A DNA stretch of 44,007 nt. Origin: a virus. Under the pieces are notes generated by a model. It worked only from the letters and a program-made list of their open reading frames with translations. It was not told the origin of the DNA and made no database searches. The DNA lies in IMG/VR virus record IMGVR_UViG_3300030116_003639, positions 1 to 44,007 of that record. The stretch is one strand, 5' to 3'. Positions 6,154 to 43,166 of the stretch are shown here, piece by piece; within the stretch, counting starts at the first letter, position 1, and each line of letters begins with the position of its first letter. A program made the position numbers and the translations under genes.

Positions 6154-6611
6154 AGAAGTATTGTTTCGTATTTGGTCCGTCCTTCTACTTTGCTCGCTCT
6201 TAACACTTGTTTTCTTGGCGCTTCCGTCACCGCTGAGCAGTGAACCCATCCAGAATTTGGATCACCTTCATTATAAAATTCCAGAATTAGTTGGTCAAAT
6301 TCCGTATTTTTACTAATCCACGTTGCAAGTTCCTTGTTGTCAACTCCATGTATCTCGAAGTCTGCTGCCTCACCCCTGGCATGTTGTGACTTAGACGAAG
6401 AGCCGATAGCTTCGCACAACGCTGGGCTACGATAGCCTGAAGATATCATGACCGGTTTACCAAAATGCTCACGCACTGGTTGCAGGACGGCCTCCGCTAG
6501 GTGAATAAGGTTTTCTATTTCCGCGGTCCCCGGTTCGTTGTTAATGCCTTTGCGTACCGCGGTCTGCGACTTAGTTAATTCTGATAGTGAAAAGTTTTCT
6601 GATAGTTTCAT
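6150..6611 (-). CDS. Endolysin, peptidase M15A-type (D-Ala-D-Ala carboxypeptidase-like)
   Basis: 153 aa. The zinc-peptidase M15 signature is clear: SSGYRSPALCEAIG (58-70), SQHARGEAADFE (75-86, with His77 and Asp84) and GWVH (121-124, with His124), together giving the His-Asp-His zinc site. These enzymes cut peptidoglycan cross-link peptides, and in a phage this is the lysis enzyme acting in the periplasm. No signal peptide is visible, so export would rely on a holin. It starts by ATGA overlap with the 205-aa gene and is the last gene of the late leftward unit. It converges with the helicase, sharing CTAG as the two stop codons. Confidence 0.9.
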   Translation of the reverse strand: MKLSENFSLSELTKSQTAVRKGINNEPGTAEIENLIHLAEAVLQPVREHFGKPVMISSGYRSPALCEAIGSSSKSQHARGEAADFEIHGVDNKELATWISKNTEFDQLILEFYNEGDPNSGWVHCSAVTEAPRKQVLRASKVEGRTKYETILL

Positions 6612-7225
6612 ACTCTGCCCCCTTGTTTCAATTTACTTATATCTCCAAAAAATAATTTTCTCAATATTTCTCTTTGTTTAGGATCTTTTATTTTTCTTAT
6701 TAAATCTCTTAGTCCATAAAACTTTTTATATTCTGGCAAAGAATCAGGTATTCTAGAACCTGCACTTTTAGCAAACTTATACATAGGAGATGTGTACATC
6801 ATTGCTGATTTTATATTCTCCATAATACTTCTACCTCTATCTACAGGGAACCGAGCTCTACCTGGATCTAATTTCATCATTTGAGGGTAGTCTTTAAATC
6901 TAAAAAAAGCATGCCCATAAGGATCATCTGTAGCTATTTCTCTAAAAGTTGGAGTTATTTTTTTTGATCTAATAATAGGAACACCAGAATCCATTGCTCC
7001 TTGTGCGTATGTGCTGGCTGTAGCACGATTTCTTGTGACATCCCTACCTTGTATTCCAGGGCCAAACATTTTTTTACCCCCGACCCTAGCTTGCATTCCC
7101 GCTATACCTGAAGAGTAAGGTAAAGTTTCTCCTCGCATGTATAGCTCTTTAACTTTGGAAGGTTTAATTTTTTTAAGACCTGGTTTAGCTGCTGCTATTA
7201 TACCTCTTATTGCTAAAGGAATCAT
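6608..7225 (-). CDS. Basic hypothetical protein ending in GGRV
   Basis: 205 aa, unknown function. It is rich in Lys/Arg, with an N-terminal hydrophobic-basic stretch (MIPLAIRGIIAAAKPGLKK) and an otherwise mixed fold (about 75-180). The last residues are QGGRV just before the stop, one copy of the GGR(V/I) motif shared with the large virion proteins. It lies between the membrane protein and the endolysin with ATGA overlaps on both sides. It could be a lysis accessory or a late virion protein; position alone does not decide. Confidence 0.7.
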   Translation of the reverse strand: MIPLAIRGIIAAAKPGLKKIKPSKVKELYMRGETLPYSSGIAGMQARVGGKKMFGPGIQGRDVTRNRATASTYAQGAMDSGVPIIRSKKITPTFREIATDDPYGHAFFRFKDYPQMMKLDPGRARFPVDRGRSIMENIKSAMMYTSPMYKFAKSAGSRIPDSLPEYKKFYGLRDLIRKIKDPKQREILRKLFFGDISKLKQGGRV

Positions 7226-7482
7226 AACATGCCCAATAGTGTCTCAATAACAATTAAACCAACGGCACCCACCGTGGTAAGAACTACCCAATAGATTTTG
7301 TCTATCTTGCCCCCCAAAGCTTCTACGTCTTGATGTACATGTGTAATCTTATCATCTAGGTGTTTAAGATGGTTTGTTTTTATAACTTCTATTTCACGTT
7401 CTACACCTTTTAAGTGACCATATAAAGAGATCACGTGTTCTCTATCTGATTCTGGTGTTATGCCTTTAACTGTATCGTTCAT
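7222..7482 (-). CDS. XhlA-like coiled-coil plus membrane-anchor protein, possible holin or lysis accessory
   Basis: 86 aa. A charged coiled-coil (about 20-62) is followed by one C-terminal membrane segment (about 64-86, starting YWVVLTTVGAVGLIVIE). This is the layout of XhlA/hemolysin-type phage lysis proteins, which sit in the inner membrane and help release the endolysin. It lies two genes upstream of the endolysin. The ATG overlaps the stop of the 1920-aa gene by one base (TAATG). It could alternatively be a membrane anchor for the ejection complex. Confidence 0.65.
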   Translation of the reverse strand: MNDTVKGITPESDREHVISLYGHLKGVEREIEVIKTNHLKHLDDKITHVHQDVEALGGKIDKIYWVVLTTVGAVGLIVIETLLGML

Positions 7483-10400: not shown

Positions 10401-13244
10401 CATAGTAGATTCACCAGATAAAAGTGTTTCATTTAATTTATCCATAAACTTTGATCTACCTTCGTTACCCATTTGATTAAAAGGATTTTTTACAAAAGGA
10501 AAAATAGCATCAATGTGCTTGTCTAATTTACGAGCTTCTTGACTGGCAAAGTTAATGTCAGTAGCACGCACACCTATGTTCCTTCTTTCTAAATCAAAGT
10601 ATTCTTGAGACTTCTGACCTCTAGGTCTAAACGCTCCTAAGAATTTATCTATGGCATCATTGTTAGAAGCTAAATCGTTTCTTCTTCTGTATAAAGATTT
10701 TATAGAAGAGCCAGCACCACCAACCAAACCTAAGAACAAAGATCCATCTACACCAAATTTCATTCTGTTTAATATTTCTCTAGATGCAATCTTCTCGTCG
10801 TTAGGATCTAGTTCTGTTGGACCACCTCCAACCATATCTCCAAATGTACCAACACCTTCTGGGTCTCCTACAAATATAGCATCCGTTACTCCAGCACCGG
10901 CAGCACCACCAAGAGTTGCCATTAATCTACCACCTGCATTTAGTGAAGTATTAAACTTTTCTACAAGTGCAGGGTCAGTTAACTTAAAATAATTCCCGTT
11001 CCGTTTTGCAAGAAGCGCGGTCCTTGCTAATTTTTCACCAGCTTTAAAACCATAATAACCAGGTACACCTAAGTTAACAGCTACCTTAGCAAACTCTCCT
11101 AAGAAATGATCTTTGGCTTTTTCGTCAAAAGTTGTTAGGTCGTCAAAGAAAGCAGAAACTTTCGCTGCATTGTTTGTACCAAAACCTAAATCTAATAATG
11201 ACGCGCCAAGAGTAAAGGCACCCTTTGGTATATCGATCAAACCAGATGCAATACCAGCAAGTAAACTTTCAACAGCTCCAACTTTATTTGTTACATCTAA
11301 ACCAAACTGTCCACCCTTAGTAACAGAGCCTCCACTAAAATAATTATTTCTATCTTTTAAAGGTATAGCCATAGCTCTATCTTTCATAACTTCAAGAACA
11401 GCATCACCAAGACCTAGTCCTGTTGTGTCTTGCATCTGTCTAACCACTGTATCAAAATCTGTTTTTGGATTTGCTATAGGTTGTACGCCTGCTGGACCTG
11501 TGCCTTGTCCATACTCTACACGGCCACCGTCCTCCATATCAACACGGCCACCTTCATCATATCCTTTAAGTAATTCTTTTAAAAAAGCTGTGTCTGTTCC
11601 TTCTTTATAACCTTGTGTCGCTCTTCTACCTTTTCCTAAGGCTTGAAAGAATATATTGTCTGGATTTTTTATGTAAAAATCCATTACGTTTTCTTGATTA
11701 AAAGTTTTTTTTGCAAGCGCATTATATGCATCGTCTATGCCTTGATCAAAACCATCAGAGACAAAGTTAAGTACATTATCTCTGCCCATATCTCTTTCAA
11801 AACTTTGAAAAACACCATCATATTCTTTCCCTAGTTTACCATCACGCCATTTTAAATAATTTTGATGTAGTTTATTAGAGTGTTTTTGATTTTTCATAAA
11901 TTGAAAAATACCAGCAGCTCTTGGACCAACATCGTTTATTTTATCAATATAACGTCTTGAAGCATTAAATGGTGTAACAGTTCCATCATCAGCCATTCTT
12001 ATGTAACCTGGTTTGTACCCGGTTAAATCAGATATAATTTTTCTAGCTTTGTCTACATCGCTATTAAAAGCTGTTGCAGAATATTTTGTAGGCATAGCAG
12101 TTTCAGGATCAATTATTCCTTTAATAGCTCTTTCTCTTTTAGCTACATAATTAGCAAGTCTTGAATCATACCAAGTTTTAAAACGATTTAAAGCAGCACT
12201 AGTATGTTCTCCTTTTATCAAATAACTTCTAGGTAAATATTTACCAACTAAAAATTTAGGAAGTCTATGTTCAAACGCATTTTTTGTATTAGCTATTGAC
12301 CTAATAGCGCTAGTAATGTCATTTTCAAGTTTTACATTTTTTGGACTAAACTTAGCAAGAGATATAACGTCTTGCGTTGTTCTTAACGAAGGAAGAAGTC
12401 TTACAGCTCTTTGTGCTTCTTTTGAAAAAGGAATACCTCTTTTAGTACCCACTCCTGTACTTGCCTGAAATAAACTAGTTACATAACCTTTCATAGATTC
12501 TGGACTTGAAATGTTAAACTCTTCCATCATCTTTGCTAAGAAAGGATAGTTTGCTTTCACTACTGGACTTACTTGATCTAGATTATTCTCAATATACTCT
12601 GCCATTTTTTTAAGTTTTGCAGTTTTAATTTCTCTCTTTGCTGCAGGGCTAGGACCTGCAACACCTAGTTTTTTGTATATTTGATTAACCATGCCTGGTT
12701 CAACCGTATCTAAATTTTTCTGTTTAAGAAGTTTTTTAATTGGCGCTACAGCTGAGTTTGCTGCAATGGTAGGGTTATCTTTTTGAAATTTTTTTATTAG
12801 ATTAAATCTTGTTATGTCAATACTGTTACCAACCTTTTTTGGAGCGTTTTCAAAGACTACTAGTTTTCCAGCTTTTGCCGCCCTCTCCAGTCTTGCTGAT
12901 TGAGACATATCAATACCTGCGTTTTTGAATACGTTACGTGCTAAATTACCTCCGTCATCTTTGACCCCTTGCATTGATTTTCCAGAGGCAGCTGTCCTTC
13001 TTTTTCTGTAGCCAAAAACTTTACCTCCTATTTCGTTGGCTGTTAAGGTGCCTTGTGCTTTTTCATTTTCACGAAGTATTTTGTTTAGATTGGAAATTGA
13101 AATATATTTTCCGCGCCCGTCTGATTTAGTGTATACCCGAACCTTACCATCATAATATTGGTTAGCTTTTTTTCCGTTTTTAATAACTACTTGAGCACCT
13201 TTTATAAGTTCTTTACCAAACTTAAATATTACTTGAGCTGCCAC
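7482..13244 (-). CDS. Giant (1920 aa) putative internal virion/DNA-ejection protein
   Basis: The largest gene, with a GTG start at 13244 and AGGAGG 5 nt upstream. The N-terminal third is Lys-rich and helical. Residues about 565-577 contain two close GGRV motifs, and a GGSV follows at about 635. A Gly/Ala-rich, membrane-like stretch lies at about 650-860 (segments such as LLAGIASGLIDIP and LMATLGGAAGAGV). The rest is long helical sequence. Size, position between small ejection proteins and the lysis genes, and the amphipathic region resemble T7 gp16 or other large ejectosome proteins that form a channel across the envelope. No lytic transglycosylase or protease motif is visible, so the enzymatic role is open. 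It is expected to be packaged in the head and injected with DNA. Confidence 0.6.
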   Translation of the reverse strand: MAAQVIFKFGKELIKGAQVVIKNGKKANQYYDGKVRVYTKSDGRGKYISISNLNKILRENEKAQGTLTANEIGGKVFGYRKRRTAASGKSMQGVKDDGGNLARNVFKNAGIDMSQSARLERAAKAGKLVVFENAPKKVGNSIDITRFNLIKKFQKDNPTIAANSAVAPIKKLLKQKNLDTVEPGMVNQIYKKLGVAGPSPAAKREIKTAKLKKMAEYIENNLDQVSPVVKANYPFLAKMMEEFNISSPESMKGYVTSLFQASTGVGTKRGIPFSKEAQRAVRLLPSLRTTQDVISLAKFSPKNVKLENDITSAIRSIANTKNAFEHRLPKFLVGKYLPRSYLIKGEHTSAALNRFKTWYDSRLANYVAKRERAIKGIIDPETAMPTKYSATAFNSDVDKARKIISDLTGYKPGYIRMADDGTVTPFNASRRYIDKINDVGPRAAGIFQFMKNQKHSNKLHQNYLKWRDGKLGKEYDGVFQSFERDMGRDNVLNFVSDGFDQGIDDAYNALAKKTFNQENVMDFYIKNPDNIFFQALGKGRRATQGYKEGTDTAFLKELLKGYDEGGRVDMEDGGRVEYGQGTGPAGVQPIANPKTDFDTVVRQMQDTTGLGLGDAVLEVMKDRAMAIPLKDRNNYFSGGSVTKGGQFGLDVTNKVGAVESLLAGIASGLIDIPKGAFTLGASLLDLGFGTNNAAKVSAFFDDLTTFDEKAKDHFLGEFAKVAVNLGVPGYYGFKAGEKLARTALLAKRNGNYFKLTDPALVEKFNTSLNAGGRLMATLGGAAGAGVTDAIFVGDPEGVGTFGDMVGGGPTELDPNDEKIASREILNRMKFGVDGSLFLGLVGGAGSSIKSLYRRRNDLASNNDAIDKFLGAFRPRGQKSQEYFDLERRNIGVRATDINFASQEARKLDKHIDAIFPFVKNPFNQMGNEGRSKFMDKLNETLLSGESTMNAIGKVEFGPMDRALKEEVESIMRSRGAAKADIEGVFDSFEAIRGRWGRMFSRLGTTMDDEVRDGFAPLFSKKFKDYLGSTYEMFQNKSLIPLFRYKPTQESLDKVIKIFQDSAKDAGKPITKEQAEFYANQVVETAKLPRDLATASERTSGIYFDAPDFFVNRTTLSELEGRGTVALEDVINSDKKAFEELFGKVKDPMQTMLTGTNRLSLIARRNQFFNELLGSDKKMAAERAKFLEENPGGVTPATMRGFFRETEREAVEAFGQNIKKIDIDPSRTIEAGITNPLHGKYAEKGVAEAIEESSMLARDKSTLQQLYDSFVLYPKATSQMAKTILSPVTHIRNFVSAGAFASSNGLFLQAPDEIAAAMKDAYKALQIPGSRMANDEYRKLLSLGVVNSNVRLGDLQKLLKDTNFGETINSTKAMRNLMRPLSKLKKWTEDMYTAEDDFWKITSYALERRQLANAYKKYGINKTIDELDEEAADLIRNQIPNYDMVNDFIRATRKLPLGNFVSFPAEIMRTTANILNRAIKEINMTHTLDDGRIVKPLQSIGYKRLFGLGTTVVAIPYGTVEAAKAIYGVTEDEMQAMRRFVPDWSKNSTLVPIRGEDGDLKYIDFSHANAYDTMIRPITAMYTGLQRGMDENAIGREVLRGMWEGTKETLSPFVSESIWTSAISDIFIRGGRTREGNRLWTDETPWGEMMSKAIMHAAETQFPGSLQTFKRLDLAIEPVDILTKGKFDKYGQSFELGDELLGFAGMRAVEVNPLRAMDFKIADFRTGINNARREFTGPTLRGPVDPATIVDRYKVASEALYKVQEKMHRDYLAARTLGTPVTTLDLKFADRISDVQLQAIKRGVFKPFIPSENIEKAFADNARAVGQPDPYQRVKTLINRLIKLYDGMPLGLELPDSNNPFKQSIIGQIPIGQSPIFQGLTNSPASTGSITIGQPVQQQLQQTAMKGQQVFGANDSIFGVG

Positions 13245-13249
13245 TGTAA

Positions 13250-13255
13250 CCTCCT
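13250..13255 (-). promoter_or_regulatory. Ribosome binding site that fixes the GTG start of the giant gene
   Basis: AGGAGG on the minus strand, 5 nt from the GTG at 13244. This supports GTG as the true initiation codon of the 1920-aa protein. Confidence 0.75.
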
Positions 13256-15404: not shown

Positions 15405-15406
15405 AA

Positions 15407-16603: not shown

Positions 16604-18066
16604 TATACTTTAGCCTCTAGTTGGTTCATTAAATCATACATTTTTTGTGCACCGACGTTTACATCTCCGTTGCCCAAACCTTTTACAGCATCGCGTGTCA
16701 TGACAAACTCATCTTTTGATAACATTGCTGGTACATCGTCGGCTCGCGGTTTAGTTCCCATAGGAATAAATCCACCACCACGTCCATCTAACTGCATGCC
16801 CATATCAACTGGGTTTTGCATTGTTTGTGGTATGCTTCCAGCATTCATTATACCACCCATGTTTCTATTTACACGACCACCTACTGCGTACCCGTGATCC
16901 ATTTCTTCTATCATGCCCTCTAGTACTTCAATTTCTTTTACAGACAATTGATCTAAAGGTTTTTTATACATGTCCAAAGCTAAATTTTCTAACATATCAA
17001 ATCTTTCTGCCATAGGATCTGGATCAGACATAGCCATCATCATATTACTCATACCTCCACCTTCTAATCCAATACGACCACCGTTTGCTCTTCCCATGTT
17101 TGGATTCATCATTTCTTGCATTTGCATATTGTACATTTGTTCTGCTATTGCATCTTCGTTTGCACCTGGAGATCCTTCAGGGAATAAAGCATCCATTATT
17201 AATTGTCTTTGTAACTCTTCATCATCCATCTGTTCTGTTTCTACTATATCTCCATCCATAAAACCTACACGGCCACCTAAATACATTTCATCACGGTCGC
17301 CTAGGTAACCTCTTTTTTCCATTTCTTTGTAAAGTTCTTCGTTTCCTAAATTTTCAAACTCAGGAAAATCTACTATAAAACGTTCTACTGCATATTTTAA
17401 ATCACCAGGTCCACCGCCACCCATAAGTCCAATACGACCACCATCAGCTGCGCCTTGTGTTGTATAGATTGGATAGTTAGTTCCTGGATACTGTATTCTT
17501 CTACGTTGATTAGGGTTAGCTGCAACTTCTGTATATTCCCCACCCATCATTTGACCTAACGGTCCATAAATAGTGTTTATTTCGTCGTCTGTATAACCAG
17601 CTTTCTCACCATACATTCTCATCATATCATAGTTTGCTTGATTAAGTGCAGCTCTATCAACAGGATCGCTACCTTGTTCTGGACCACCTTTAGAACCTAA
17701 CATCATTCCTAAAGCACCAAGACCACCATAGGTCATTGCTCCTTTAAGTGAAAAAGGATTTTTAAGTCCAGTCATTACTCCTTTTGCAATCGGCGACTTC
17801 ATCAAAGCACCTATTCCTTTTGCTATTGATCCTTTACCTAATGCAAGTTTACCAGCAGTACCAAACAAACCTGAAGTTGCTGGTGCCATTGATGCGGTCC
17901 CATGTAATACAGCTCCCATCGGAGTTGCTGCTGTTCCTAATGCAGCCCCTTTAAGTCCACCCATTAAGGCTGGTCCGCCAAGAGCTATTGCTGCTAAAGG
18001 TAATAATACCTTTGGTCGCATCACCTTCTTAACAACTTTTTTAATCTTCTTTCCGACCGATCCCAT
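16603..18066 (-). CDS. GGR(V/I)G-motif virion protein, possible ejection protein
   Basis: 487 aa. A basic N-terminus (MGSVGKKIKKVVKKVMRPKV) is followed by a hydrophobic Gly/Ala region (about 20-120) that could insert in a membrane. The second half is acidic and Met-rich and carries four GGR(V/I) motifs at nucleotides 17431-17442, 17266-17277, 17071-17082 and 16870-16881, each flanked by further GG pairs. The C-terminal 60 residues (FIPMGTKPRADDVPAMLSKD) look folded. It sits between the HlyC-like gene and the Gln-rich protein. Function unknown; a structural or ejected protein is the best guess from context. Confidence 0.6.
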   Translation of the reverse strand: MGSVGKKIKKVVKKVMRPKVLLPLAAIALGGPALMGGLKGAALGTAATPMGAVLHGTASMAPATSGLFGTAGKLALGKGSIAKGIGALMKSPIAKGVMTGLKNPFSLKGAMTYGGLGALGMMLGSKGGPEQGSDPVDRAALNQANYDMMRMYGEKAGYTDDEINTIYGPLGQMMGGEYTEVAANPNQRRRIQYPGTNYPIYTTQGAADGGRIGLMGGGGPGDLKYAVERFIVDFPEFENLGNEELYKEMEKRGYLGDRDEMYLGGRVGFMDGDIVETEQMDDEELQRQLIMDALFPEGSPGANEDAIAEQMYNMQMQEMMNPNMGRANGGRIGLEGGGMSNMMMAMSDPDPMAERFDMLENLALDMYKKPLDQLSVKEIEVLEGMIEEMDHGYAVGGRVNRNMGGIMNAGSIPQTMQNPVDMGMQLDGRGGGFIPMGTKPRADDVPAMLSKDEFVMTRDAVKGLGNGDVNVGAQKMYDLMNQLEAKV

Positions 18067-31620: not shown

Positions 31621-31653
31621 TTTAAATTAGGTAGTACCTAACAGTGCTACTTA

Positions 31654-32565
31654 TTAAGCAGAACCGTCAGAACCGTAGATACCTCTCCAGTCAGACCAGC
31701 CGAAGCTGTATCTTTCTCTGGCTTTGTATCTCATGTTACCAGTTTCAAAATCGCCTTCCATGGCAGTTTTGATTGGTACACGTACCATATGTTTCATTCC
31801 ATTAGGAACATCAGTTTTAATGAAGAACGCATCTGGATCAGTTAGGTAGTTGTTCACTACATAACCTTGAGGGATCATTCCCATTGATTTTAGTGCGTTG
31901 ATATCATTATCAGCTGTTCCTACACGTTGAGCAGACTTCATAAGTCTTTCAGCAACGAACTGGTTCTCTGAAGGTATAATTAGTTTCATACCTCTTGCAG
32001 CAATTTTTAGACCACGCTCATCTTTGAACTGTCCAATGTCAATCATTGCTTGTTCAAGAGAAGTCTCAGACAAGTCAGACAAAGTAGTTGGTCTGTTGCT
32101 TAGGTTACCAGCGATAGTTGGGTGAGCGTTTCCGATTAGGGACTCACCGTCACCACCATTATAACCAGAAGCTTGGAACGCATTGTTTAATACATTCGCT
32201 GCTTTGGTTTGCTTCGTTTGAGCCATAGATCTTGCTAGTGCTTTAGTGTAACGAGTAGAAATCTTATCATACAAGTTATCTTCAACATTTTCCTCAGTTA
32301 GTGAGAAAGCGAGAGCGATTGTCTCATGTTGGTATCTTGCAGTGAAAGTTTCCTGCGCGCTATCATAAGTCACAGCAGCACCTTCTGACTTAACGGCTGC
32401 TTTGTCGAAACCAGATAACATTACTTCTTCTTCAAAAGCTCTGTCACTGTTTTCCGTGTCGAAAATCTCCGCGTGTTGATTTTCGTAGTTTTTGTACTCT
32501 AGTCCAAATAATGCATTCAGACCAGGCTCTAGCTCTTTTGCGAGCTGTTGTCTTGATATAGCCAT
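31654..32565 (-). CDS. Major capsid protein
   Basis: 303 aa. It lies after scaffold and decoration genes in the normal order, has an ideal AGGAGG 5 nt before ATG 32565, and is followed by the best terminator of the window, all signs of very high expression. The sequence (TEENVEDNLYDKISTRYTKA at about 93-112; AARGMKLIIPSENQFVAERL; a C-terminal beta end SFGWSDWRGIYGSDG) fits an HK97-fold capsid subunit of marine podo/siphophage type. No separate protease gene is seen. Assembly uses the upstream scaffold and possibly the phage GroES. Confidence 0.85.
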   Translation of the reverse strand: MAISRQQLAKELEPGLNALFGLEYKNYENQHAEIFDTENSDRAFEEEVMLSGFDKAAVKSEGAAVTYDSAQETFTARYQHETIALAFSLTEENVEDNLYDKISTRYTKALARSMAQTKQTKAANVLNNAFQASGYNGGDGESLIGNAHPTIAGNLSNRPTTLSDLSETSLEQAMIDIGQFKDERGLKIAARGMKLIIPSENQFVAERLMKSAQRVGTADNDINALKSMGMIPQGYVVNNYLTDPDAFFIKTDVPNGMKHMVRVPIKTAMEGDFETGNMRYKARERYSFGWSDWRGIYGSDGSA

Positions 32566-32570
32566 AATTA

Positions 32571-32576: not shown

Positions 32577-32580
32577 GCTA

Positions 32581-33135: not shown

Positions 33136-33184
33136 ATTGTTATCCTCCTTAAAGGGTTAAGTTAAATCGATGGTTAAACAAAGA

Positions 33185-33649: not shown

Positions 33650-33653
33650 ATGC

Positions 33654-34631: not shown

Positions 34632-34650
34632 AGTTAATTCCTCCTATGAA

Positions 34651-35088: not shown

Positions 35089-35293
35089 GTGGTTCTGGCT
35101 CCTTTGGTTCTAGCAGGTTAGAGAGTTCCTGATTTATTAAGTCGATTCCATGAATCTTACCTATTATATACTTATAATCTTCCATGCTGTCAATCCCGCC
35201 GTTTGCTAGAGCTTGTACTAGATCGTCCATCTGAGTCTGCATGCTCTTTTTTAGTCGGTATATGACGCTTATTGGGTCTGTAGCTTCTGACAT
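35057..35293 (-). CDS. Small helical protein overlapping GroES
   Basis: 78 aa, starting MSEATDPISVIYRLKKSMQT, two or three helices (about 5-30 and 38-62) and a disordered tail. It ends 32 nt inside the GroES frame. An AGGAG lies about 15 nt upstream of its ATG. Similar small helical proteins near portal/scaffold genes are common in marine phages. Function unknown. Confidence 0.65.
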   Translation of the reverse strand: MSEATDPISVIYRLKKSMQTQMDDLVQALANGGIDSMEDYKYIIGKIHGIDLINQELSNLLEPKEPEPHDTNVTRIRK

Positions 35294-35366
35294 ATTTTTT
35301 ATCTTTGTCTCCTAGTCTTTCCCAGAATTCATCAAGTGGATTCTTGGGTTTATCTTCTTCCCCCAT
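35190..35366 (-). CDS. Small charged ORF in the overlapping micro-gene nest
   Basis: 58 aa from ATG 35366 (a TTG at 35378 is in frame but the GGGGG Shine-Dalgarno fits the ATG). Begins MGEEDKPKNPLDEFWERLGD and turns into a Lys/Arg/Ser-rich tail. It covers the 100-nt gap between the holin-like gene and the 78-aa gene, then overlaps the latter by 104 nt in another frame. Likely translated, but the C-terminal part may be incidental. Confidence 0.45.
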   Translation of the reverse strand: MGEEDKPKNPLDEFWERLGDKDKKYVRSYRPNKRHIPTKKEHADSDGRSSTSSSKRRD

Positions 35367-35395
35367 TTTTTCCCCCAATGTAAGATTAAGTCAAT

Positions 35396-35773
35396 CTATT
35401 TTTTCTTGAAAATATCTACGCCCTTCAAACCGTATATACTCGCAACGACCCCGACGAATAGGGTCTGGTACCAGAAAGGGAGATTATTAAACTGCTCAAA
35501 GAACATGTGCAGTTTAGCTTGAATGTCTGGATCTTCACTAAAGACACTCCATATCAACAATATCACGGGCGCACTTACGAGCAAAAGCACGAACTCGTCT
35601 TTCCATCCCTTGTCGTTTGACTGTCTTACGGCTGCCTGATACTCGATTTCACCATTAGCCATTTTCTGTGCGTGCAACATTGCAGCATCTGACTCGAGCA
35701 TTTTGCGCTGCTGTCTGTTTTTCATAATGTGGGTGCCAGCGCCGATTGCTAGTTTGACTACGTCAAGTATCAT
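35396..35773 (-). CDS. Holin-like membrane protein
   Basis: 125 aa. An amphipathic N-terminal helix and a charged coil (about 20-58) precede two membrane segments (FVLLLVSAPVILLIWSVF at 61-78; TLFVGVVASIYGLKGV at about 104-119) and a KKK tail. This matches small phage holins that make the inner-membrane lesion for the endolysin. It sits far (about 29 kb) from the endolysin, in the head region, so timing by late expression is possible. It could be another membrane protein. Confidence 0.65.
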   Translation of the reverse strand: MILDVVKLAIGAGTHIMKNRQQRKMLESDAAMLHAQKMANGEIEYQAAVRQSNDKGWKDEFVLLLVSAPVILLIWSVFSEDPDIQAKLHMFFEQFNNLPFWYQTLFVGVVASIYGLKGVDIFKKK

Positions 35774-35777
35774 GTGA

Positions 35778-35891
35778 TTATGTGATTATTCCTATTATAA
35801 TTATAACGATAACAGCGGCACCGATGACTTTAGTTTTCCAACCCATCTCAGACCACTTGTCTATAATTTTTTCTCTTAAGTCTTGGATCAT
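35778..35891 (-). CDS. 37-aa single-pass membrane protein
   Basis: ATG 35891 to TAA 35778. N-terminal charged helix MIQDLREKIIDKWSEMGWKT, then an all-hydrophobic segment (about 22-37, VIGAAVIVIIIIGIIT) that would cross the membrane. It has a very good GGAGG, and its ATG overlaps the stop of the DUF6496-like gene (ATGA). It is placed just before the holin-like gene, so it may be a holin regulator or antiholin-like partner. Function inferred. Confidence 0.75.
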   Translation of the reverse strand: MIQDLREKIIDKWSEMGWKTKVIGAAVIVIIIIGIIT

Positions 35892-36052
35892 GTCGTCCTC
35901 CTCTTTTTTTTCTTCTTAGAAACACCCGCTTCGCTGAGCGCGATAGCGATTGCTTGCTTTTTGTTTACCACTTTTTTCTTAGATTTACCAGATTTAAGTT
36001 TACCAGACTTAAACTCTCTCATCACTTTGCTGATTTTCTTTTCTTTTTTCAT
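35888..36052 (-). CDS. 54-aa Lys-rich protein, DUF6496-like
   Basis: ATG 36052 to TGA 35888. It begins MKKEKKISKVMREFKSGKLK and contains KKQAIAIALSEAG (about 31-43), the pattern of the small DUF6496 phage family. The gene overlaps the end of the 859-aa Hint-domain gene by 44 nt and the start of the 37-aa gene by 4 nt. Very basic, so likely DNA- or RNA-contacting. The function of the family is unknown. Confidence 0.75.
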   Translation of the reverse strand: MKKEKKISKVMREFKSGKLKSGKSKKKVVNKKQAIAIALSEAGVSKKKKKRRTT

Positions 36053-38588
36053 GTAATTTTTTATTTAAGTCTTGTCTTACTTTTTCAAAATAAGGTTCCC
36101 AATCTTCATCTGTGCCTGATTCAAAGTCACCAAACTCTATGCCTTTAACCCACATTCTTTGTTTAGATGTTTTCATAGAATAAACAGGTTCAAACATATC
36201 TGTTTTAATTCCATGCTTACTGTCTTCAACAGCAATTAATTGATTGTCTTCCACAACCCAGTGAGTTCCAGAAACTTTTACTCCTTTGTAATCCCAAATA
36301 TCGACTGGCAGTCCTTGTAGAACAAACTCAACTGTACCACCTCTTGTTTCCATTCCAGGAGTAATAGTTGTAATTTCTTTTGTAGTGCCGTCAGCCATCT
36401 CAACCATAGTACCTTTAACAAAACATCTAGACTGACCTTGTTTTCCGCCATGATCTGCTCCACCACCATGGTAACCTCCGCCACCACCACTATTTTTATT
36501 CTTATCCTTATCCTTATTCTTATTCTTATTTTTATTCGCATTCATTGCAGCGTTGACTTGAGATTGAGTAGCTGTGCTCATTGAGCTGTGAGGAGACTGA
36601 GCTCCCCCTGTATATCCTGATACTGTTCCGCCACTAAATGTTCCTGTGCCACTAGGTTTATTATCTCCACTTCCAGTTCCACCACTATATTGATTAGCTG
36701 CATATGTTTCTTTTAAAGTTTGTGCTTCCTCTTCTGCTGCTGCTTCTTCTGCTGCTTTTTGAGCTGCGGCTGCTTCTCTCTCTTCTTTTTCTTTTTTCTG
36801 TCGCTCTATAACTTCTTGTGCTGTTTTTTGATTAAATTCTGCTATTTCATCGTCAATTTCTTTTTGTTTCTGATCAAAACCAAATAAACCACCAAGTAAA
36901 TTAAGTCCTGCAAACAATGGAGAAGCTATTGGCACTTCATCTCCAGGCACTACTCCGGTTCTAAGGTATGGATTAACATTGTCGTATACCAGTTTGCCAT
37001 CTACAAATTTCATAGTAGTTTGGTTAGCTGGATTTGAAAAACTAAGTGGGTTATCTTGTGGTCTAAACCCTTCCATTCTATCTTCTGGTCCTTTGCTTCC
37101 TAGAGGTTTTATATTTTCTGGACCAAGAGATCCAAAACCTTCTGGCGGCATAGGACCTGTCGCACCAGAATTATTCGCGTCTGGATCAAGAATAGGTTGA
37201 ATTGCAGGCGGTACTATTGTTGGAACATTAAAGTTTTGGTTATAGTATTGCGCTGCATAATTAGGAGCCATAAAAGGTGTGAAAGGCAAACCTCCAGCTT
37301 GTAATCCAACACGACCGCCGTATGCCATTTCACCTTCCATTTCCATTCCTGCAAAAGGATCAGTTGGATCGTTCATATATTGAGGAAACTTATCTTCTAT
37401 AATATCCATTATCTGTTCAGGAGCTACGTCAGAAAATTGTTCAGTCATTTGTTTAAAAGCTTCCATACCAGTCGGGTTTAAATCGTCCATGTATCTTCCT
37501 TTTAAATCGTATACCTCTTCACTTATCGGTCCACTACCATCATAGAAAGACTTATCAGAATAACCTTGTACTCCTTCTTCATTAGTTCCATCAGCATAAT
37601 AAACACGACCACCTGTATTCATGTCATCTCTCATAACACCAGCACGTTTCATTACTTCCATTTGCTGTTCTGGTGACATCATTTCAAATTCTATAAGTTC
37701 TCTTTCAGTTAACCCTTCAGCAAAACGTTCTATTACATCTTTAAAACCCATGCCTCCGTCCATAAAGCCTATACGACCACCGTCTGCTTTTGTATTAGAC
37801 CCTACTTCAAAGTCTTCATCTCCTCTAATCATATCCATAAAATTACCAGCACTTTCACCAACAGCATCTTCAAAGTTACCTACATAATCCTGTTCTATAT
37901 ACCCTTTATCTGCAAGGTACCCACTCCCTGCTTTAGCCCCCATATAAGCAAGATCACCAAGCAAAATAGCTATACCTAAGGGACCAGTTCCCATCAAAGC
38001 AGCTCTCATTGCTATTTTCTTTGCTAATTGTCCTTTAATACCTGGAGCGTTAAGAGCTTTTTTAATTGTATTTTTTACAGATTCTCCGCCTCTAATTTTA
38101 CCTTGAGCAGAATCAACCAGATCTAAAGCTTGTCTAGCTCCTAAATATTGTGCTGCTGGTCCGCCTCCTAACATACCTCCTGCTGACATTATGTCTTCAC
38201 CAAGTTCAGATGCTTCTAATGCAGCTTGATCCTCTGGTGTGTATGTGTAGGCATCATCGGACGTCATGGCTTGTACTGCTGCTGCATTTGCGTTTAATTC
38301 TTTACTTAGCTGTGCTGCTTCTGCTTCTGCATTAGCTTGTTCAAAATAAGCATCTAAAGGATCTGCTTCTGGTTCATCGGGATTCAAGAGAGCTTTAAGA
38401 GCAGGAATTGTACTGTTTGTAAAATCATCTTTTAGTTCTGCTTTCTTTGCAGCTCTATCTGCTAAGTACTCATCCATTACAACTTTAGACTCGTCTCCAC
38501 CATACATCCAAGAAGTGCTACCTTGCCCAGGTCGCATAGCAAACGTAGGCATAACTCCTTTTCCAAATGTACTAGTGTAGTCAACCAT
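36009..38588 (-). CDS. GGR(V/I)G-motif virion protein with C-terminal Hint (intein-like) domain
   Basis: 859 aa. The N-terminal third is Ala/Asp/Glu-rich helix with a hydrophobic segment (about 195-225). GGRI/GGRV motifs lie at nucleotides 37770-37781, 37602-37613 and 37308-37319. A Pro-rich region, a Lys/Ala/Glu coil (about 590-645), and a low-complexity NKNKNKNKDKDKNKN linker (about 683-698) follow. From Cys722 comes a Hint domain: CFVKGTMVEMADGTTKEI and VSGTHWVV (His776). There is no C-terminal HN or extein, so it is like a hedgehog/BIL-type self-processing end. Cleavage would release the upstream part. It lies upstream of portal; probable virion or ejection role, inferred. Confidence 0.75.
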   Translation of the reverse strand: MVDYTSTFGKGVMPTFAMRPGQGSTSWMYGGDESKVVMDEYLADRAAKKAELKDDFTNSTIPALKALLNPDEPEADPLDAYFEQANAEAEAAQLSKELNANAAAVQAMTSDDAYTYTPEDQAALEASELGEDIMSAGGMLGGGPAAQYLGARQALDLVDSAQGKIRGGESVKNTIKKALNAPGIKGQLAKKIAMRAALMGTGPLGIAILLGDLAYMGAKAGSGYLADKGYIEQDYVGNFEDAVGESAGNFMDMIRGDEDFEVGSNTKADGGRIGFMDGGMGFKDVIERFAEGLTERELIEFEMMSPEQQMEVMKRAGVMRDDMNTGGRVYYADGTNEEGVQGYSDKSFYDGSGPISEEVYDLKGRYMDDLNPTGMEAFKQMTEQFSDVAPEQIMDIIEDKFPQYMNDPTDPFAGMEMEGEMAYGGRVGLQAGGLPFTPFMAPNYAAQYYNQNFNVPTIVPPAIQPILDPDANNSGATGPMPPEGFGSLGPENIKPLGSKGPEDRMEGFRPQDNPLSFSNPANQTTMKFVDGKLVYDNVNPYLRTGVVPGDEVPIASPLFAGLNLLGGLFGFDQKQKEIDDEIAEFNQKTAQEVIERQKKEKEEREAAAAQKAAEEAAAEEEAQTLKETYAANQYSGGTGSGDNKPSGTGTFSGGTVSGYTGGAQSPHSSMSTATQSQVNAAMNANKNKNKNKDKDKNKNSGGGGGYHGGGADHGGKQGQSRCFVKGTMVEMADGTTKEITTITPGMETRGGTVEFVLQGLPVDIWDYKGVKVSGTHWVVEDNQLIAVEDSKHGIKTDMFEPVYSMKTSKQRMWVKGIEFGDFESGTDEDWEPYFEKVRQDLNKKLHEKRKENQQSDERV
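36490..36540 (-). repeat. Hexanucleotide low-complexity repeat (Asn-Lys/Asp-Lys linker)
   Basis: Runs of a 6-nt unit (TTATTC / TTATCC on the plus strand) encode NK and DK pairs between the virion part and the Hint domain. It looks like a replication-slippage microsatellite that sets linker length. Confidence 0.8.
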
Positions 38589-41089
38589 TAATCACTCCTC
38601 TTTTCTAAGATACTTGCTTTCATCTCTTTTATACCGTCTTTTGCCAAAGATACTGAAGCTCTTAGTTTTTGGTGCTGATCATTTTGCTCCATTTTATCTT
38701 CAGCTATCTCTTTAGCTTGTAACATTTTAGATCTCTCTAAGTTTAACTTATCTTCTGCCTCACTTTGTCTAGCTTGTTCTTGTGCTGCTTTGATGTCAAG
38801 TTCTCTGTCTTTTAATTTTAATAACGGATCACCTTCTATCTGATTAAGTGTTTCTTTTTCAGCTTTTGCATAATCTTCCATAAACTCAGAAATTAATGTT
38901 GCTTTACGTGCCTCAATAGCCACTTGTAACTCTGCTTGTTGCTGTTGAAACTGCTGAATTTGCGGATTTTGCTGCATCATTTGCGGATTTTGCTGCATTT
39001 GTTGGATGATTGGTGCCATTTGCTGTGATAATTGCTGCATACGCTGAATTTCTTGCTGATATTCCATCTCAACGTGCTCTCCAGCCATCAAAACTATGTG
39101 TTCCATGCAATTTTGCTGTAAAATTCCTAACGCTTGAGGATTATTTCTGCAAATAGTCGTACCCATAAACAATAAATGCGATTTCATGTGCGCTTGGTGA
39201 TCTTGTTTTGGAAATGCTTGTATCTTTTTACCATTTAACGCCAAAACATTCTCTGTACCAGGGTCCATTGCTTGTGGTTGTGGCGGTGGTGGTAGTACCA
39301 TATCGATATCTTTTACACCTAACGCTTCATACATGTGTCTGTATGCATGATAAATATTGTGCATAGCAGGATTTGACATTGCAATTTGTAATTCACTTTG
39401 TGCAATAGCAATTCTTTGTGTCTGTGAAAAAATATTTGGATCAGCAACTGGAACGATGTCTACTTTTTGATCAAAGTCTGCTTTAAATATTTCATTCTGA
39501 CCACCAACAACATCATATGGATAAATAGATGGTAGATAAGTTACAAAACATCTTTCTAAAAGCATAAACTCGCATTTCATTGCTGCATAAATTCTTTTGT
39601 GTATTGCTGACATAACCCGCGATCCGCGCTCCAAGAGCGCAACTGTAGTACCAACAGCTGCTGACTGATTACCGTCACCAACTTGTAGGTCTGCTATACT
39701 CGCGAATCGTTGACCAGCGCTTACTACAACACCCATCAACTGTAATAACGTGCCATCAGGACCTTTGAAAGGTAATGGCATAAATGCATCTTTAAGGTTT
39801 CCACCAGGTGCATCAACGTCACGGAACTCGCCCGGCTGCAACGGTTGAGCTTCGTCTCTGACCCTGATGCCTCGCATCTTGAATCCGGCCGGTAAATTTG
39901 ACAAGGTGCCGGCGTCTAAAAGTTGTCTTAGTGCTGCTGTTGCAGTTCTGGACAATCCGCCGATCATGTGAATTAAGCCGAACCCGTAAAATCCGAGTCC
40001 TGGTAGAAATTTAAAGTGGACGAAATAATCTTTACGTTTTTTGGTCTGGTCTTGTTCATCCCAGTTCCTTTTTACGCTTAAGACTTCTCCTGAACCTTCG
40101 TCCAAGGTTACTATGTAAGGAAACTTGACTCCTGTAGACTCATTTGTTTTTGGATCTATGTCCTCAAATCCTTCTATTTCTAAATGGACATGAGCCTCAA
40201 GGATTGTAAATGTTTCGTTCTTATCTGGATCAACACCAGATAGTTCATCTTTTTTATCTGAGACAGCGTCTGGATTAACAGATCCACTTTCTCCTAAATC
40301 AATATCTCTATATACACCTGCTAGTTGTTGCATGATGACATCATTTTTAGTCATCTGTATTTTGTGAATAATGCACTCTGTATCGTCTAATGACGTTGCA
40401 GTATAAGGAACATATAAATCTTCTGCTGGTACAAACTTAGATACACATCTTGCAAGAACTGCATCGTAATAAACTTTTTTAAATGTAGAACCAGACAACG
40501 GTAAATTAAATAACATTTGATCAAACTCAGGTTCATACTCTTTCATGTTTATCATTAGCTGATAGTTCATGAACTCTCTTACACGTTTTGACTGCTTTTG
40601 TTTCTCCGGTGTTTCTAATCCTATAATCTGTGTTCTAACAGGACCACCTGCAGGCATAAGTTCTTTGTAAGCTAGTGCTTGAAACTGTGTTACTGCTTCT
40701 GCAAGAACTGGGTGGGTAGCCCCACTTGATCCTTGGAAAGGCTCAGTTCTGTCTTCGTACTTAAATCCAAGTAAGTCTAATCCGTTTACGTAAGTTTGTT
40801 CCCAATCACTTCTAGCTGACTTGCAGTCTTCGTATTGTTCCATAACTTCGTTTGATATTTCATTAAGAACATTTTCGTCTAAGACTTCTGCTATGTTTTC
40901 TTGGTGACCAGCCATAGGTTGTTCCTGTTGTGGTTCACCAAAATTTATAACAGCACCACCATCTTCAAACATCTCTACGTTAGAAGGTTGTGGGTCTTCT
41001 GCTTCTAGTTCTACTTCCTCATCATAAACGGTAGTTGGATCTTTTAATTCATCCACTCCTTGATCAGGTATATTTTTATCTATCGCCAT
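38588..41089 (-). CDS. Portal protein (P22-type, large)
   Basis: 833 aa. It follows terminase and a 691-aa gene as expected for a portal. Recognisable segments are SSGATHPVLAEAVTQFQALA (about 120-139), a long alpha/beta core with GLGFYGFGLIHMIGGLSRTA (about 365-384), and a C-terminal helical barrel with Gln-rich repeats and a coiled coil (about 670-830). The N-terminus has an EDGGAV segment akin to the GGRV motif. Portals form the 12-mer ring through which DNA enters. Strong AAGGAG before ATG 41089. A 21-bp tandem repeat lies in the Gln-rich part (38959-39000). Confidence 0.85.
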   Translation of the reverse strand: MAIDKNIPDQGVDELKDPTTVYDEEVELEAEDPQPSNVEMFEDGGAVINFGEPQQEQPMAGHQENIAEVLDENVLNEISNEVMEQYEDCKSARSDWEQTYVNGLDLLGFKYEDRTEPFQGSSGATHPVLAEAVTQFQALAYKELMPAGGPVRTQIIGLETPEKQKQSKRVREFMNYQLMINMKEYEPEFDQMLFNLPLSGSTFKKVYYDAVLARCVSKFVPAEDLYVPYTATSLDDTECIIHKIQMTKNDVIMQQLAGVYRDIDLGESGSVNPDAVSDKKDELSGVDPDKNETFTILEAHVHLEIEGFEDIDPKTNESTGVKFPYIVTLDEGSGEVLSVKRNWDEQDQTKKRKDYFVHFKFLPGLGFYGFGLIHMIGGLSRTATAALRQLLDAGTLSNLPAGFKMRGIRVRDEAQPLQPGEFRDVDAPGGNLKDAFMPLPFKGPDGTLLQLMGVVVSAGQRFASIADLQVGDGNQSAAVGTTVALLERGSRVMSAIHKRIYAAMKCEFMLLERCFVTYLPSIYPYDVVGGQNEIFKADFDQKVDIVPVADPNIFSQTQRIAIAQSELQIAMSNPAMHNIYHAYRHMYEALGVKDIDMVLPPPPQPQAMDPGTENVLALNGKKIQAFPKQDHQAHMKSHLLFMGTTICRNNPQALGILQQNCMEHIVLMAGEHVEMEYQQEIQRMQQLSQQMAPIIQQMQQNPQMMQQNPQIQQFQQQQAELQVAIEARKATLISEFMEDYAKAEKETLNQIEGDPLLKLKDRELDIKAAQEQARQSEAEDKLNLERSKMLQAKEIAEDKMEQNDQHQKLRASVSLAKDGIKEMKASILEKRSD
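38959..39000. repeat. Two tandem 21-bp repeats in the portal Gln-rich barrel
   Basis: TTTGCGGATTTTGCTGCATC is repeated head to tail (copies about 38959-38979 and 38980-39000), encoding QQNPQMMQQNPQ-type residues. Likely slippage product. Confidence 0.75.
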
Positions 41090-41090
41090 G

Positions 41091-43166
41091 TTATCTCCTT
41101 GTTCCGAATAAATTTCCTACACCAAAGCCTGACATACCACCTAATACTTGATTGCCAAACATATTATTACCGTACGGGTTAACTCCATTATTATTATCGT
41201 TTCTTAATTGTTGTAATATTTGTCCTTGTCCTTGGGATAGCCCTCTTCCTAAACTCTCTAGTTTTTGATCTAAGCCCACACCAACTTGTTGAAAATCGTC
41301 CATACCAGCATATGTATCTGCTAGTCCTTGTTGAGCTTGCATTTCTTGCATTCTATAGTTTTGCATTTGTTCGTTTTGTCTTAACTGAAACTCTTGATTT
41401 TGTTTTCTTGCTTCTGCAAAAAAGGGATTGCTCGCCAGCTGACTTATTCGATCTTGAAAAGGTGACATCTGTTGATTAATTCCATACAAGTCTTCGTTAG
41501 TCATTGCATTTCGTTGCGCTACTGTAGATTCTGGAGCTGCAAGAGTATTAACAATACCACCTGATGCAAAACCTGACTCACTGCCGTGAAGTCTATAGAC
41601 CATTCTAATGTACATGTCTGTACCTTCTGGATCTATCTCCATCAGTTTTTGTAACTTAGCATCATCATACAAAATGTGTGCTCTAAACTTCTCGTAATCT
41701 ATTTCTTGGAGCATTCCTGTTTGCATTAAACCTTTATAACGAGGTGAATCCAAAACCATTTGTTCTATTTCTGCATACTGATCTAAATCTAAACCTGGCT
41801 CTGATCTAGACATCCTTCTCATCTGTTGTAGGTCTGCAACAACATCTGGTTTGTGTCCAGTGTCAAAAGGTTTTCTTGGAAACATTGATTCTTCGTCTGC
41901 GCCTACAAGTCTTCTTATTAAATTGGCAATGCCTCCACCTTTTAATCCTACTCTTCCACCGCTTGCATTAGGTTCTCTTAGTTTGTTGTACGCATCTATA
42001 AATTTTTGAATTGCTTCTCTTGGAGGAACGCCATCTTGTAAGTCTTTTACAAGATCATCTAACATCATTTCTTTTTGTCTCATTCCTCTTACAGCAAAAT
42101 CAGCTTCAGCTACATAATTCTCTGATTGTCTTTTCATAGACTCCATGTCATCCATCATTTTTCTAATCTCATCATCAAGTTTGCTGGTACTCATAATACC
42201 TTCTCCTTTGACAGGCCCTCTAGCAAAACCTTCTCTCATGTGTCTTGCAAAAACTGGGTTTGACATTCTTGAAACACTTCTAGGTAAACCAAGATCTATC
42301 ATGTTTTGGAACATCTCATTATCGACTTGAGATTCACCCATTATGTACTCCCTAAACCTTGGATCTCTGTCCATCAAACTTGTTCTAGCTACTCTCATGT
42401 CTAATTCATTATCAGGAACTAAATTTCTCATGGATATGTTGCCGGCAGGAGTTTTAGGTTGCATCATTGATCCAATACCTTTGTCACCTCCTATACCTAA
42501 AAGTTTTAACAGGTATCTAATAAAACCACCCTTTGCTGCGCCTACGCGTCCACCAAGTCTATAGTTTTCTGGAAATGGGTTTTGGTAATAAATCCATTTT
42601 TCTGGATCTACTTCGTTCTTTAAAAATTCTGCGTATGTGCCTTCATAATTTTCTCTTAAATATCTTCTAAGTAATTCTACTTCACCTGGAGCTTCTTTCA
42701 TCATTCGCTCTATATTAGCTTTTATAATTCCTTCTCTACCAGGAAAGTTTCCGTATGGTGCGCCTTCTAATTGTAAAGATTGATTGGCCGCGCTCCGCGC
42801 TAATTGTGCCGGTTCTATATTTGTAACGTTGTTCGCGCCGCCCGGACCAAACACATCATCTGAAAATTTATACATTGCATTTGTGTGTCTTAAAATCTGT
42901 TGGTCATCACCCATAGCTATTGCTTTTGCAACTAAGTCTTCTAATCTTTCTTTTGCAGCTGTAGGAAAAGTTTCATTGATCTGCATGTACTCTTTGACAT
43001 TGTTTGTAAAGTCATCGCTAATGTGGAAAGCGTCTCTTTTTGCAAACTGTGGATCCATACGAAGATCAACATTGCCATATTTCATTTTAGCAATCTGTTG
43101 AATTTTGTTCGAGTCAAGTCCAGCTTTGGTACTTGCTTTCAATAATGACATCACAAAATTACTCAT
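41091..43166 (-). CDS. GGRVG-motif protein upstream of portal, function unknown
   Basis: 691 aa. The start MSNFVMSLLKASTKAGLDSN is hydrophobic-helical; the middle is helical and acidic. GGRV copies lie at nucleotides 42543-42554 and 41949-41960, plus a GGIV at about residue 537, each next to a hydrophobic helix (FIRYLLKLLGIGG; IANLIRRLVG). The C-terminal 120 residues are Gln/Asn-rich. Its place between terminase and portal is unusual for ejection proteins, but the motif links it to the 487- and 859-aa genes. One-base overlap with terminase (TAATG). Confidence 0.65.
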   Translation of the reverse strand: MSNFVMSLLKASTKAGLDSNKIQQIAKMKYGNVDLRMDPQFAKRDAFHISDDFTNNVKEYMQINETFPTAAKERLEDLVAKAIAMGDDQQILRHTNAMYKFSDDVFGPGGANNVTNIEPAQLARSAANQSLQLEGAPYGNFPGREGIIKANIERMMKEAPGEVELLRRYLRENYEGTYAEFLKNEVDPEKWIYYQNPFPENYRLGGRVGAAKGGFIRYLLKLLGIGGDKGIGSMMQPKTPAGNISMRNLVPDNELDMRVARTSLMDRDPRFREYIMGESQVDNEMFQNMIDLGLPRSVSRMSNPVFARHMREGFARGPVKGEGIMSTSKLDDEIRKMMDDMESMKRQSENYVAEADFAVRGMRQKEMMLDDLVKDLQDGVPPREAIQKFIDAYNKLREPNASGGRVGLKGGGIANLIRRLVGADEESMFPRKPFDTGHKPDVVADLQQMRRMSRSEPGLDLDQYAEIEQMVLDSPRYKGLMQTGMLQEIDYEKFRAHILYDDAKLQKLMEIDPEGTDMYIRMVYRLHGSESGFASGGIVNTLAAPESTVAQRNAMTNEDLYGINQQMSPFQDRISQLASNPFFAEARKQNQEFQLRQNEQMQNYRMQEMQAQQGLADTYAGMDDFQQVGVGLDQKLESLGRGLSQGQGQILQQLRNDNNNGVNPYGNNMFGNQVLGGMSGFGVGNLFGTRR

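Follow-up and report, generated by a model that had tools for sequence, protein, structure and literature searches.

Recurrent GGR(V/I) motif and C-terminal tag in late proteins of a Pelagibacter phage relative, candidate docking peptides for proteins of the phage head

The 44,007-bp IMG/VR virus contig IMGVR_UViG_3300030116_003639, analysed over its whole length and referred to as the window, encodes several late proteins in which the short peptide GGR(V/I) recurs, and the question raised by this locus is what such a peptide does on proteins that are otherwise dissimilar. A first-pass annotation had listed 12 exact sites in at least five proteins and had proposed co-packaging docking, processing or membrane contact as roles. 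All 12 sites were found where they had been placed, on the minus strand of five open reading frames (ORFs). A 13th GGRI at 556-567 lies inside a 13-codon stretch between stops and is presumably due to chance. Shuffling within each of the 41 gene products gave a mean of 0.54 GGR(V/I) and a maximum of 4 in 2000 shuffles, against 12 observed, and 11 alternative orders of the motif letters were found 7, 4, 2, 1, 1 and 1 times in the window, the rest being absent. In this comparison with Gly/Arg composition, set beforehand as a test, the motif lay far above the shuffled expectation. In a scan of the viral collection, YADGGR(V/I)G occurred in 73 stretches and its permuted order in 7. Chance or composition as the origin of the motif was ruled out by the permutations, the shuffles and the codon-permuted scans described below, and the GGR(V/I) motif is real.

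To train a profile of the motif, distinct GGR(V/I) occurrences were taken from contigs that had been retrieved solely for portal similarity, the three nearest the window being left out, and 10 bits was taken as the acceptance threshold. With 118 training instances, 11 of the 12 window sites reached at least 10 bits, whereas 200 shuffles gave a mean of 0.015 and a maximum of 1. Four of the 118 instances belonged to an unrelated terminase element, and retraining on 114 again recovered 11 sites (shuffles 0.04, maximum 1). The learned motif spans 13 residues, roughly [FYK]-A-[DT]-G-G-R-[VI]-G-[ML]-x-x-G-G, and is fitted by these 11 sites. Among the 114 instances, A was found at -2 in 86 and D at -1 in 61, followed by V (101) or I (13) at +3, G at +4 in 88, and one of M, L, A and F at +5 in 102; among the residues that had not been selected for were the glycines at +8 (113 instances) and +9 (106). 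Wherever the pattern A[DTNES]GGx[VI]G occurred, x was R in 75 of 76 cases. The flank pattern GxxxGG reported earlier was seen in the window as well, with G at +4 in 7 and GG at +8/+9 in 8 of the 12 copies. The motif recurs 1-6 times per protein with an inter-copy spacing of 8 to 451 residues, mostly 45-300, in a protein set that was partly chosen for the motif. The 11 accepted sites are distributed over four genes, whose products have 691, 859, 487 and 1920 amino acids (aa):

41091..43166, minus strand: 691-aa protein between terminase and portal, with two motif copies, one degenerate copy and a C-terminal tag
42543..42554, minus strand: motif copy RLGGRVGAAKGG, residue 205 of the 691-aa protein, 24.2 bits
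41949..41960, minus strand: motif copy ASGGRVGLKGGG, residue 403 of the 691-aa protein, 26.2 bits
41550..41561, minus strand: degenerate copy ASGGIV, residue 536 of the 691-aa protein, from the alignment
41094..41123, minus strand: C-terminal tag GVGNLFGTRR of the 691-aa protein, from the family alignment and tag pattern
36009..38588, minus strand: 859-aa protein downstream of the portal, with three motif copies and a C-terminal Hint domain
37770..37781, minus strand: motif copy KADGGRIGFMDGG, residue 270 of the 859-aa protein, 29.9 bits
37602..37613, minus strand: motif copy MNTGGRVYYADGT, residue 326 of the 859-aa protein, the weakest accepted, 10.9 bits
37308..37319, minus strand: motif copy MAYGGRVGLQAGG, residue 424 of the 859-aa protein, 32.3 bits
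16603..18066, minus strand: 487-aa protein with four motif copies, first gene of a probable ejection cluster
17431..17442, minus strand: motif copy AADGGRIGLMGGG of the 487-aa protein, 24.7 bits
17266..17277, minus strand: motif copy MYLGGRVGFMDGD of the 487-aa protein, 18.6 bits
17071..17082, minus strand: motif copy RANGGRIGLEGGG of the 487-aa protein, 24.3 bits
16870..16881, minus strand: motif copy YAVGGRVNRNMGG of the 487-aa protein, 20.9 bits
7482..13244, minus strand: 1920-aa virion protein with a motif pair
11541..11552, minus strand: motif copy YDEGGRVDMEDGG, residue 565 of the 1920-aa protein, 16.8 bits
11517..11528, minus strand: motif copy MEDGGRVEYGQGT, residue 573 of the 1920-aa protein, 14.4 bits
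6611..6622, minus strand: KQGGRV at the C-terminus of ORF 6608-7225, not supported as the same motif

The fifth protein was thus not sustained: the motif flanks are absent at 6611-6622, and protein 6608-7225 had no blastp relatives among the 1978 ORFs of the loci fetched. A GGRV at the extreme C-terminus of the tape-measure protein of Caulobacter phage GB2A resembles this site. The looser variants of the first-pass annotation all exist, with GGRM, GGPV, GGAV and GGIV scoring below 0 and GGHV falling outside the 40 best. These variants and the 6611 site are best left out of the count, except for the GGIV of the 691-aa protein, which is a genuine degenerate copy.

This exception came from the conservation of the motif in families found by similarity. 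GGR(V/I) was present in every blastp relative that the two proteins had among the same 1978 ORFs, 46 for the 691-aa protein (44 distinct sequences) and 26 for the 859-aa protein (23 distinct), with positions and copy numbers shifting among them. The window proteins were aligned with 31 of the 46 and 19 of the 26 relatives, respectively. Across the 32 sequences of the 691-aa family, G403, G404, R405, G411 and G412 of the second copy were invariant, as was the GG of the degenerate copy at residue 536, where several sequences have GGRVG; these made up five and two of the 13 invariant columns. In the 20 sequences of the 859-aa family, R426, G432 and G433 of the third copy were invariant. Alignments were also made for 105 of 130 non-redundant motif proteins, one of the aligned proteins matching terminase (the others of the 130 were judged unrelated or left out for size), and since these proteins had been picked for GGR(V/I), their conserved GGR is circular and the near-invariant G at +8 in one alignment alone is informative. 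In the AlphaFold2 models, the mean predicted local distance difference test score (pLDDT) was 55.5 for the 691-aa protein and 53.5 for the 859-aa protein, and both exact motif copies and the C-terminus of the former, as well as all three copies of the latter, lay in stretches with pLDDT below 50. The low-confidence models argue for a probable location of the motif in linkers and not in a fold.

Variation of the codons had been taken as a sign of selection on the protein. The codons do vary (55 distinct 15-mers among 127 copies in relatives), but the Arg codon of the motif is skewed to CGT, which was used in 9 of 12 window copies versus 14% (12-15%) of the other window Arg, the usual Arg codon being AGA. 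In the relatives, the motif Arg was CGT in 65 and AGA in 41 of the 127 copies, and CGT made up 17% of other Arg. Outside the motif, Arg after Gly was CGT in 37% in the relatives, and the skew may in part be a context effect.

Alignment of the 691-aa family also revealed a conserved C-terminus on divergent bodies (GVGNLFGTRR, GIGNLFGARS, GMGTLYRRK, GMGSLFRRK). This C-terminal tag, common to proteins encoded between terminase and portal, is new here and was absent from the first-pass annotation. Its classes in the terminase-portal interval are GxGNLFGxRS, GMGTLYRRK, GGLATMF, GGIARMLGE and GPxSQGLxxLMKR, and the C-termini in the same region of other contigs included GGLATMFxxKR, ASGGIARMLGE and KAKGGIAGVL. 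In loci with two genes in the terminase-portal interval, the product of the second frequently terminates in a sequence like PPxSGPNSQGLQGLMKR, and 51 of 118 second genes encode GGR(V/I). Some proteins join the motif and the tag at their end, for example DGGRVGFKKGGLATMFKLKG. In the portal-anchored contigs (53 of 80 loci with both terminase and portal; complete genes from 120 aa upwards, each distinct 30-residue C-terminus counted once, terminase and portal themselves excluded), the tag was carried by 32 of 36 proteins between terminase and portal versus 4 of 131 elsewhere, and GGR(V/I) by 33 of 36 versus 18 of 131. One of the four untagged proteins in the interval (GGGVETLFQRKAM) is a visible tag variant, and the four tagged proteins elsewhere sit directly downstream of the portal. 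When incomplete genes were included, 27 of 28 distinct GGR(V/I) proteins elsewhere adjoined the portal. Among complete proteins directly upstream of the portal, from loci many of which were chosen for motif or tag, 197 of 282 fit a tag class.

Scans of the collection with codon-permuted controls lend independent support to the tag: the GG-x-A-x-MLGE terminus was found at least 120 times versus 0, and GGLATMF at least 120 times versus 25. The MLGE pattern contains the stop codon, and its C-terminal place is therefore given by construction. The gene neighbourhood, by contrast, is not fixed by the pattern: upstream of the 77 MLGE genes examined were terminase (29), the contig end (28), another ORF (17) or an opposite-strand ORF (3). 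GGLATMF stood at the C-terminus in 59 of 65 genes, and three more have an end tag behind the earlier copy; directly upstream of these 59 genes were terminase (33), the contig end (23) or another ORF (3). Tag-like C-termini were also recognized by eye in HTVC027P gp41, URG13084 and HTVC023P gp30, the last of which ends GGGMARMKPTKMY, near the GGIARM tag. The C-terminus NLGSLFGQG of the 398-aa protein of the window was set aside as a tag, its syntenic counterparts being without it.

The motif concentrates in late genes, around terminase and portal and in a distal cluster of virion genes. Among the neighbours of 45 motif-protein clusters (77 of 121 scanned), 20 of 77 were portal phrog_1216 and 19 of 77 terminase phrog_38. 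The profile gave 11 matches of at least 10 bits in the window, five in 023Pt_psg01 and four in HTVC027P, and the latter two have theirs between terminase and portal or among the distal virion genes, except for the one in URG13088, which is downstream of the portal. No match of at least 10 bits was found in HTVC023P, which like 023Pt_psg01 and HTVC027P was searched as a whole genome, nor in CRP-901, DSL-LC04, GB2A, Pag-Yong1 and HTVC010P (77-97% covered), nor in the covered third of HTVC008M. The motif also survived the second test set beforehand, absence from homologous proteins of related phages, though it is missing from one close relative, HTVC023P.

Two groups of matches were set apart from the motif. 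GGR(V/I) in 42 of 54 terminase fragments of the portal-anchored loci is a different thing; the 12 such segments displayed all read QRLQPGGRII[VL]VMTRW, a conserved terminase segment that we take to be part of the ATPase region. Host mimicry was considered for 103 stretches of the genome collection with YADGGR(V/I)G, and these look like chance, because among the 80 examined none had GG at +8/+9 (40 of 73 viral loci) and none a second copy of at least 15 bits (31 of 73).

The genes recognized in the window encode terminase, portal, major head protein, GroES, tail protein, M15 endolysin, primase and helicase, with 20 of 41 gene products scanned against protein families:

43166..43990, minus strand: terminase large subunit, C-terminal part, by family search
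38588..41089, minus strand: portal protein (phrog_1216), by family search
31654-32565: major head protein, 303 aa, by family search

The 8-kb terminase-portal end shared 66-69% DNA identity with HTVC023P, HTVC027P and 023Pt_psg01 over 22-35% of the stretch, and its portal 51-59% protein identity with their portals; judged by these identities, the virus is a relative of the Pelagibacter phages HTVC027P and HTVC023P and of 023Pt_psg01. The genes for the 487-, 398-, 716- and 1920-aa proteins form a late virion cluster resembling HTVC027P gp82-85. A ADDVPAMLSKDEFVM-type segment near the end of the 487-aa protein (16699-16743, minus strand) is common to HTVC027P gp82 and URG13127, and by eye it resembles SDSIKANLSDGEYVI of the GB2A tape-measure protein. 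In the 1920-aa protein, 11 of 12 blastp matches fell within residues 650-1837 and the remaining one paired residues 149-465 with a protein two genes after terminase in contig L108; GGR(V/I) was found in none of the 12. The motif pair sits in the N-terminal extension of about 650 residues ahead of the region that most relatives match, so that the protein looks like a putative cargo protein fused to an internal virion protein.

Searches for known families returned little. The 487-, 691-, 859- and 1920-aa proteins had no PHROG match at 0.001, and in Pfam the 691-aa protein gave a sub-threshold FliD_C and nothing more. Among 105 motif proteins of the contigs, Pfam found Hint-type models, one AXH, one terminase fragment and isolated weak matches; no recognized polyvalent or effector domain was seen in these or in the 60 of 62 second genes scanned, and the PHROGs search covered 59 of the 105. 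A tblastn search of 50,697 phage records at E 0.01 gave no match to the 691-aa protein, the 859-aa protein or a protein of contig L164 with five motif copies, and sequence searches of the PDB with four window proteins, including those of 487 and 398 aa, gave nothing at E 0.1. No description of the motif and tag peptide strings was found in open-access full text, where the occurrences of GGRIG were by title not on phage, and the passages seen of the HTVC023P-type genome paper (PMC9599517) do not describe the motif. Both motif and tags are apparently undescribed.

A shared protein-level motif of late, probably virion-internal proteins is well supported. Among the three roles proposed earlier, co-packaging docking fits best, and we give a probability of about one half to the reading that motif and tag are docking peptides through which variable cargo is brought into the head or to the portal. 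GGR(V/I) would be the core of a short docking peptide, present in one to several copies on proteins that end up inside the phage head, and a second, C-terminal form (G-phi-x-x-L-phi, usually followed by basic residues) would serve the terminase-portal proteins. During procapsid assembly, these peptides would bind a repeated surface of the inner head, such as the major capsid protein, a scaffold or the portal ring, and the cargo loaded by this binding would later be ejected with the DNA. Because motif and tag sit on divergent bodies, in probably flexible linkers or at the extreme C-terminus, they appear as a constant peptide joined to variable cargo. Peptides that dock virion cargo would be expected to show such features: repetition within linkers, conservation at the C-terminus, bodies that vary, and a constant gene position between terminase and portal. 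What the data show is the motif, with its conservation and the linker-like place it takes in the two models, together with the tag and the gene slot; packaging, a binding partner and ejection are inferred from these.

Several points weigh against docking. HTVC023P has a tag-like C-terminus yet no GGR(V/I), and the motif is therefore dispensable in a close relative. The related contigs are non-independent samples, and the tag count of 32 of 36 is not independent either, since the regular expression was written after the tails of the same loci had been viewed. Directly upstream of the portal, 85 of 282 proteins fit no tag class, some of them being visible variants, and within the window a clear C-terminal tag is confined to the 691-aa protein. 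The several tag classes need not be explained by one binding site. Finally, the bodies are almost without recognizable domains, so that they can be called cargo only putatively.

The strongest rival is a membrane-active module, in which GG-R-(V/I)-G-x-x-x-GG would form a hinge, and the hydrophobic cationic segment behind it would insert into the host membrane once the protein has been ejected. The 14-residue stretch from +10 to +23 (126 instances, terminase copies still included) was indeed more hydrophobic (mean -0.05 vs -0.75, p 9e-15) and more positive (charge 0.89 vs -0.56, p 5e-7) than segments drawn at random from these proteins, and the Tat-like sequence [RK]RxF[LM][KR] was enriched in motif proteins (12 of 167 versus 3 of 1725 others), an excess that persisted per residue (96,426 versus 410,325 residues) though motif proteins are longer. 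However, the amphipathic moment of the post-motif stretch was only slightly raised (p 0.01), the most hydrophobic 19-mers of the window lie away from the motifs except in the 691-aa protein (value 1.01), and the C-terminal tag and the fixed Arg are left unexplained; we consider this module unlikely. In contigs L109, L148, L159, L164 and others, multi-copy motif proteins contain a Tat-like RRxF(L/M)K or KRxFLK with a hydrophobic stretch behind it.

A processing role, in which a protease of the virion or the host would cut at the glycines to mature the proteins, has little support and seems improbable. The GG does lie in low-confidence, probably flexible sequence, and a self-processing domain is predicted on one motif protein:

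36123..36425, minus strand: Hint (intein/hedgehog-type) domain, residues 722-822 of the 859-aa protein, by model and Foldseek

This domain is preceded by a Gly/Asn/Lys-rich linker, and Foldseek matched its predicted fold with BIL2 and DnaB inteins (best E 4.4e-5, probability 1.00), while the 859-aa protein itself had no Pfam match at 0.01. Hom_end_hint was found in 5 of 105 scanned motif proteins, and Vint, Hint and PT-HINT in 1 of 59 each, perhaps the same proteins. The window head protein also matched families named 'major head and protease protein' (8.5e-10; profile positions 402-643 of 644) and 'head maturation protease' (3.6e-6; 416-603 of 668), but these matches lie on the 303-aa head protein itself and need not mean a protease, and no separate maturation protease was recognized among the 20 of 41 window products scanned. 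Conservation over 13 residues, with a fixed Arg and the glycines at +8/+9, exceeds the needs of a simple cleavage site, and cleavage at the C-terminal tag would remove little.

It is still more doubtful that Gly-Arg peptides hold internal proteins on the packaged DNA: a fixed Arg between glycines and the basic residues of many C-terminal tags would suit nucleic-acid contact, but Asp precedes the motif in 61 of 114 instances and two tag classes (GGIARMLGE, GGIAGVL) are non-basic. A nucleotide-level element or compositional by-product with no protein motif, for which the CGT skew of the motif Arg (9 of 12 in the window, 65 of 127 versus 17% in the relatives) might speak, is largely refuted and highly improbable in view of the 55 distinct 15-mers, the common use of both CGT and AGA, the counts far above composition and the conserved residues outside the core.

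If motif and tag do load cargo, they would mark which of the unknown marine phage proteins enter the particle and offer a handle for placing chosen proteins into phage heads. The selection of internal proteins by short-tailed phages would also become testable in culture, with HTVC027P on HTCC1062.

Among known systems, podophages eject internal proteins such as T7 gp14-16 and P22 gp7/16/20. The 487-, 398-, 716- and 1920-aa genes likewise occupy the late virion cluster, although the 487- and 398-aa proteins had no sequence match to solved structures. The capsid-targeting sequence of T4 is an N-terminal peptide by which several internal proteins are directed to the prohead, whose protease removes it. 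Like the peptides described here, for which such a role is proposed, it is short and carried by several proteins; however, the phage motifs are internal and the tags C-terminal. Polyvalent proteins are large and variable, their genes lie with virion genes of terminase-portal phages, and they are believed to reach the host together with the phage DNA (Iyer et al. 2017, PMC5512222). The motif proteins are also encoded with the virion genes of terminase-portal phages, but those scanned have no recognized polyvalent enzyme domain, and the passages of PMC5512222 mention no tag. Freshwater phage DSL-LC04 (L090 10344-12821) has a PcfJ-like protein in the terminase-portal slot, with three Arg-less GGxV repeats near its N-terminus; it was not counted as polyvalent support, PcfJ being absent from the text of PMC5512222.

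The closest likeness is to encapsulins, HK97-fold shells that load cargo via C-terminal peptides such as LTVGSLRR of Myxococcus (PMC7355545, PMC5959871). In both cases a short, mostly C-terminal peptide sits on otherwise dissimilar proteins, and VGSLRR shares four or five residues with GMGSLFRRK, GIGTLYKLK and GVGNLFGTRR; GMGSLFRRK and GIGTLYKLK have the phi-G-[ST]-L of the encapsulin peptide, whereas GGLATMF and GGIARMLGE do not. In encapsulins, the carriers are encoded beside the HK97-shell gene, while the phage tag carriers adjoin terminase and portal, and the phages have several tag classes and an internal Arg motif, with docking to the shell being a proposal from sequence. The likeness to GMGSLFRRK is short and could be convergent. 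Tentatively, and with less confidence than in docking itself, one may picture an ocean phage lineage with a peptide address code, the internal Arg motif plus the C-terminal tag, through which interchangeable proteins would be brought into heads of the HK97 type or to the portal, as a viral counterpart, perhaps a relative, of encapsulin loading, a picture that bears on the possible viral roots of the latter.

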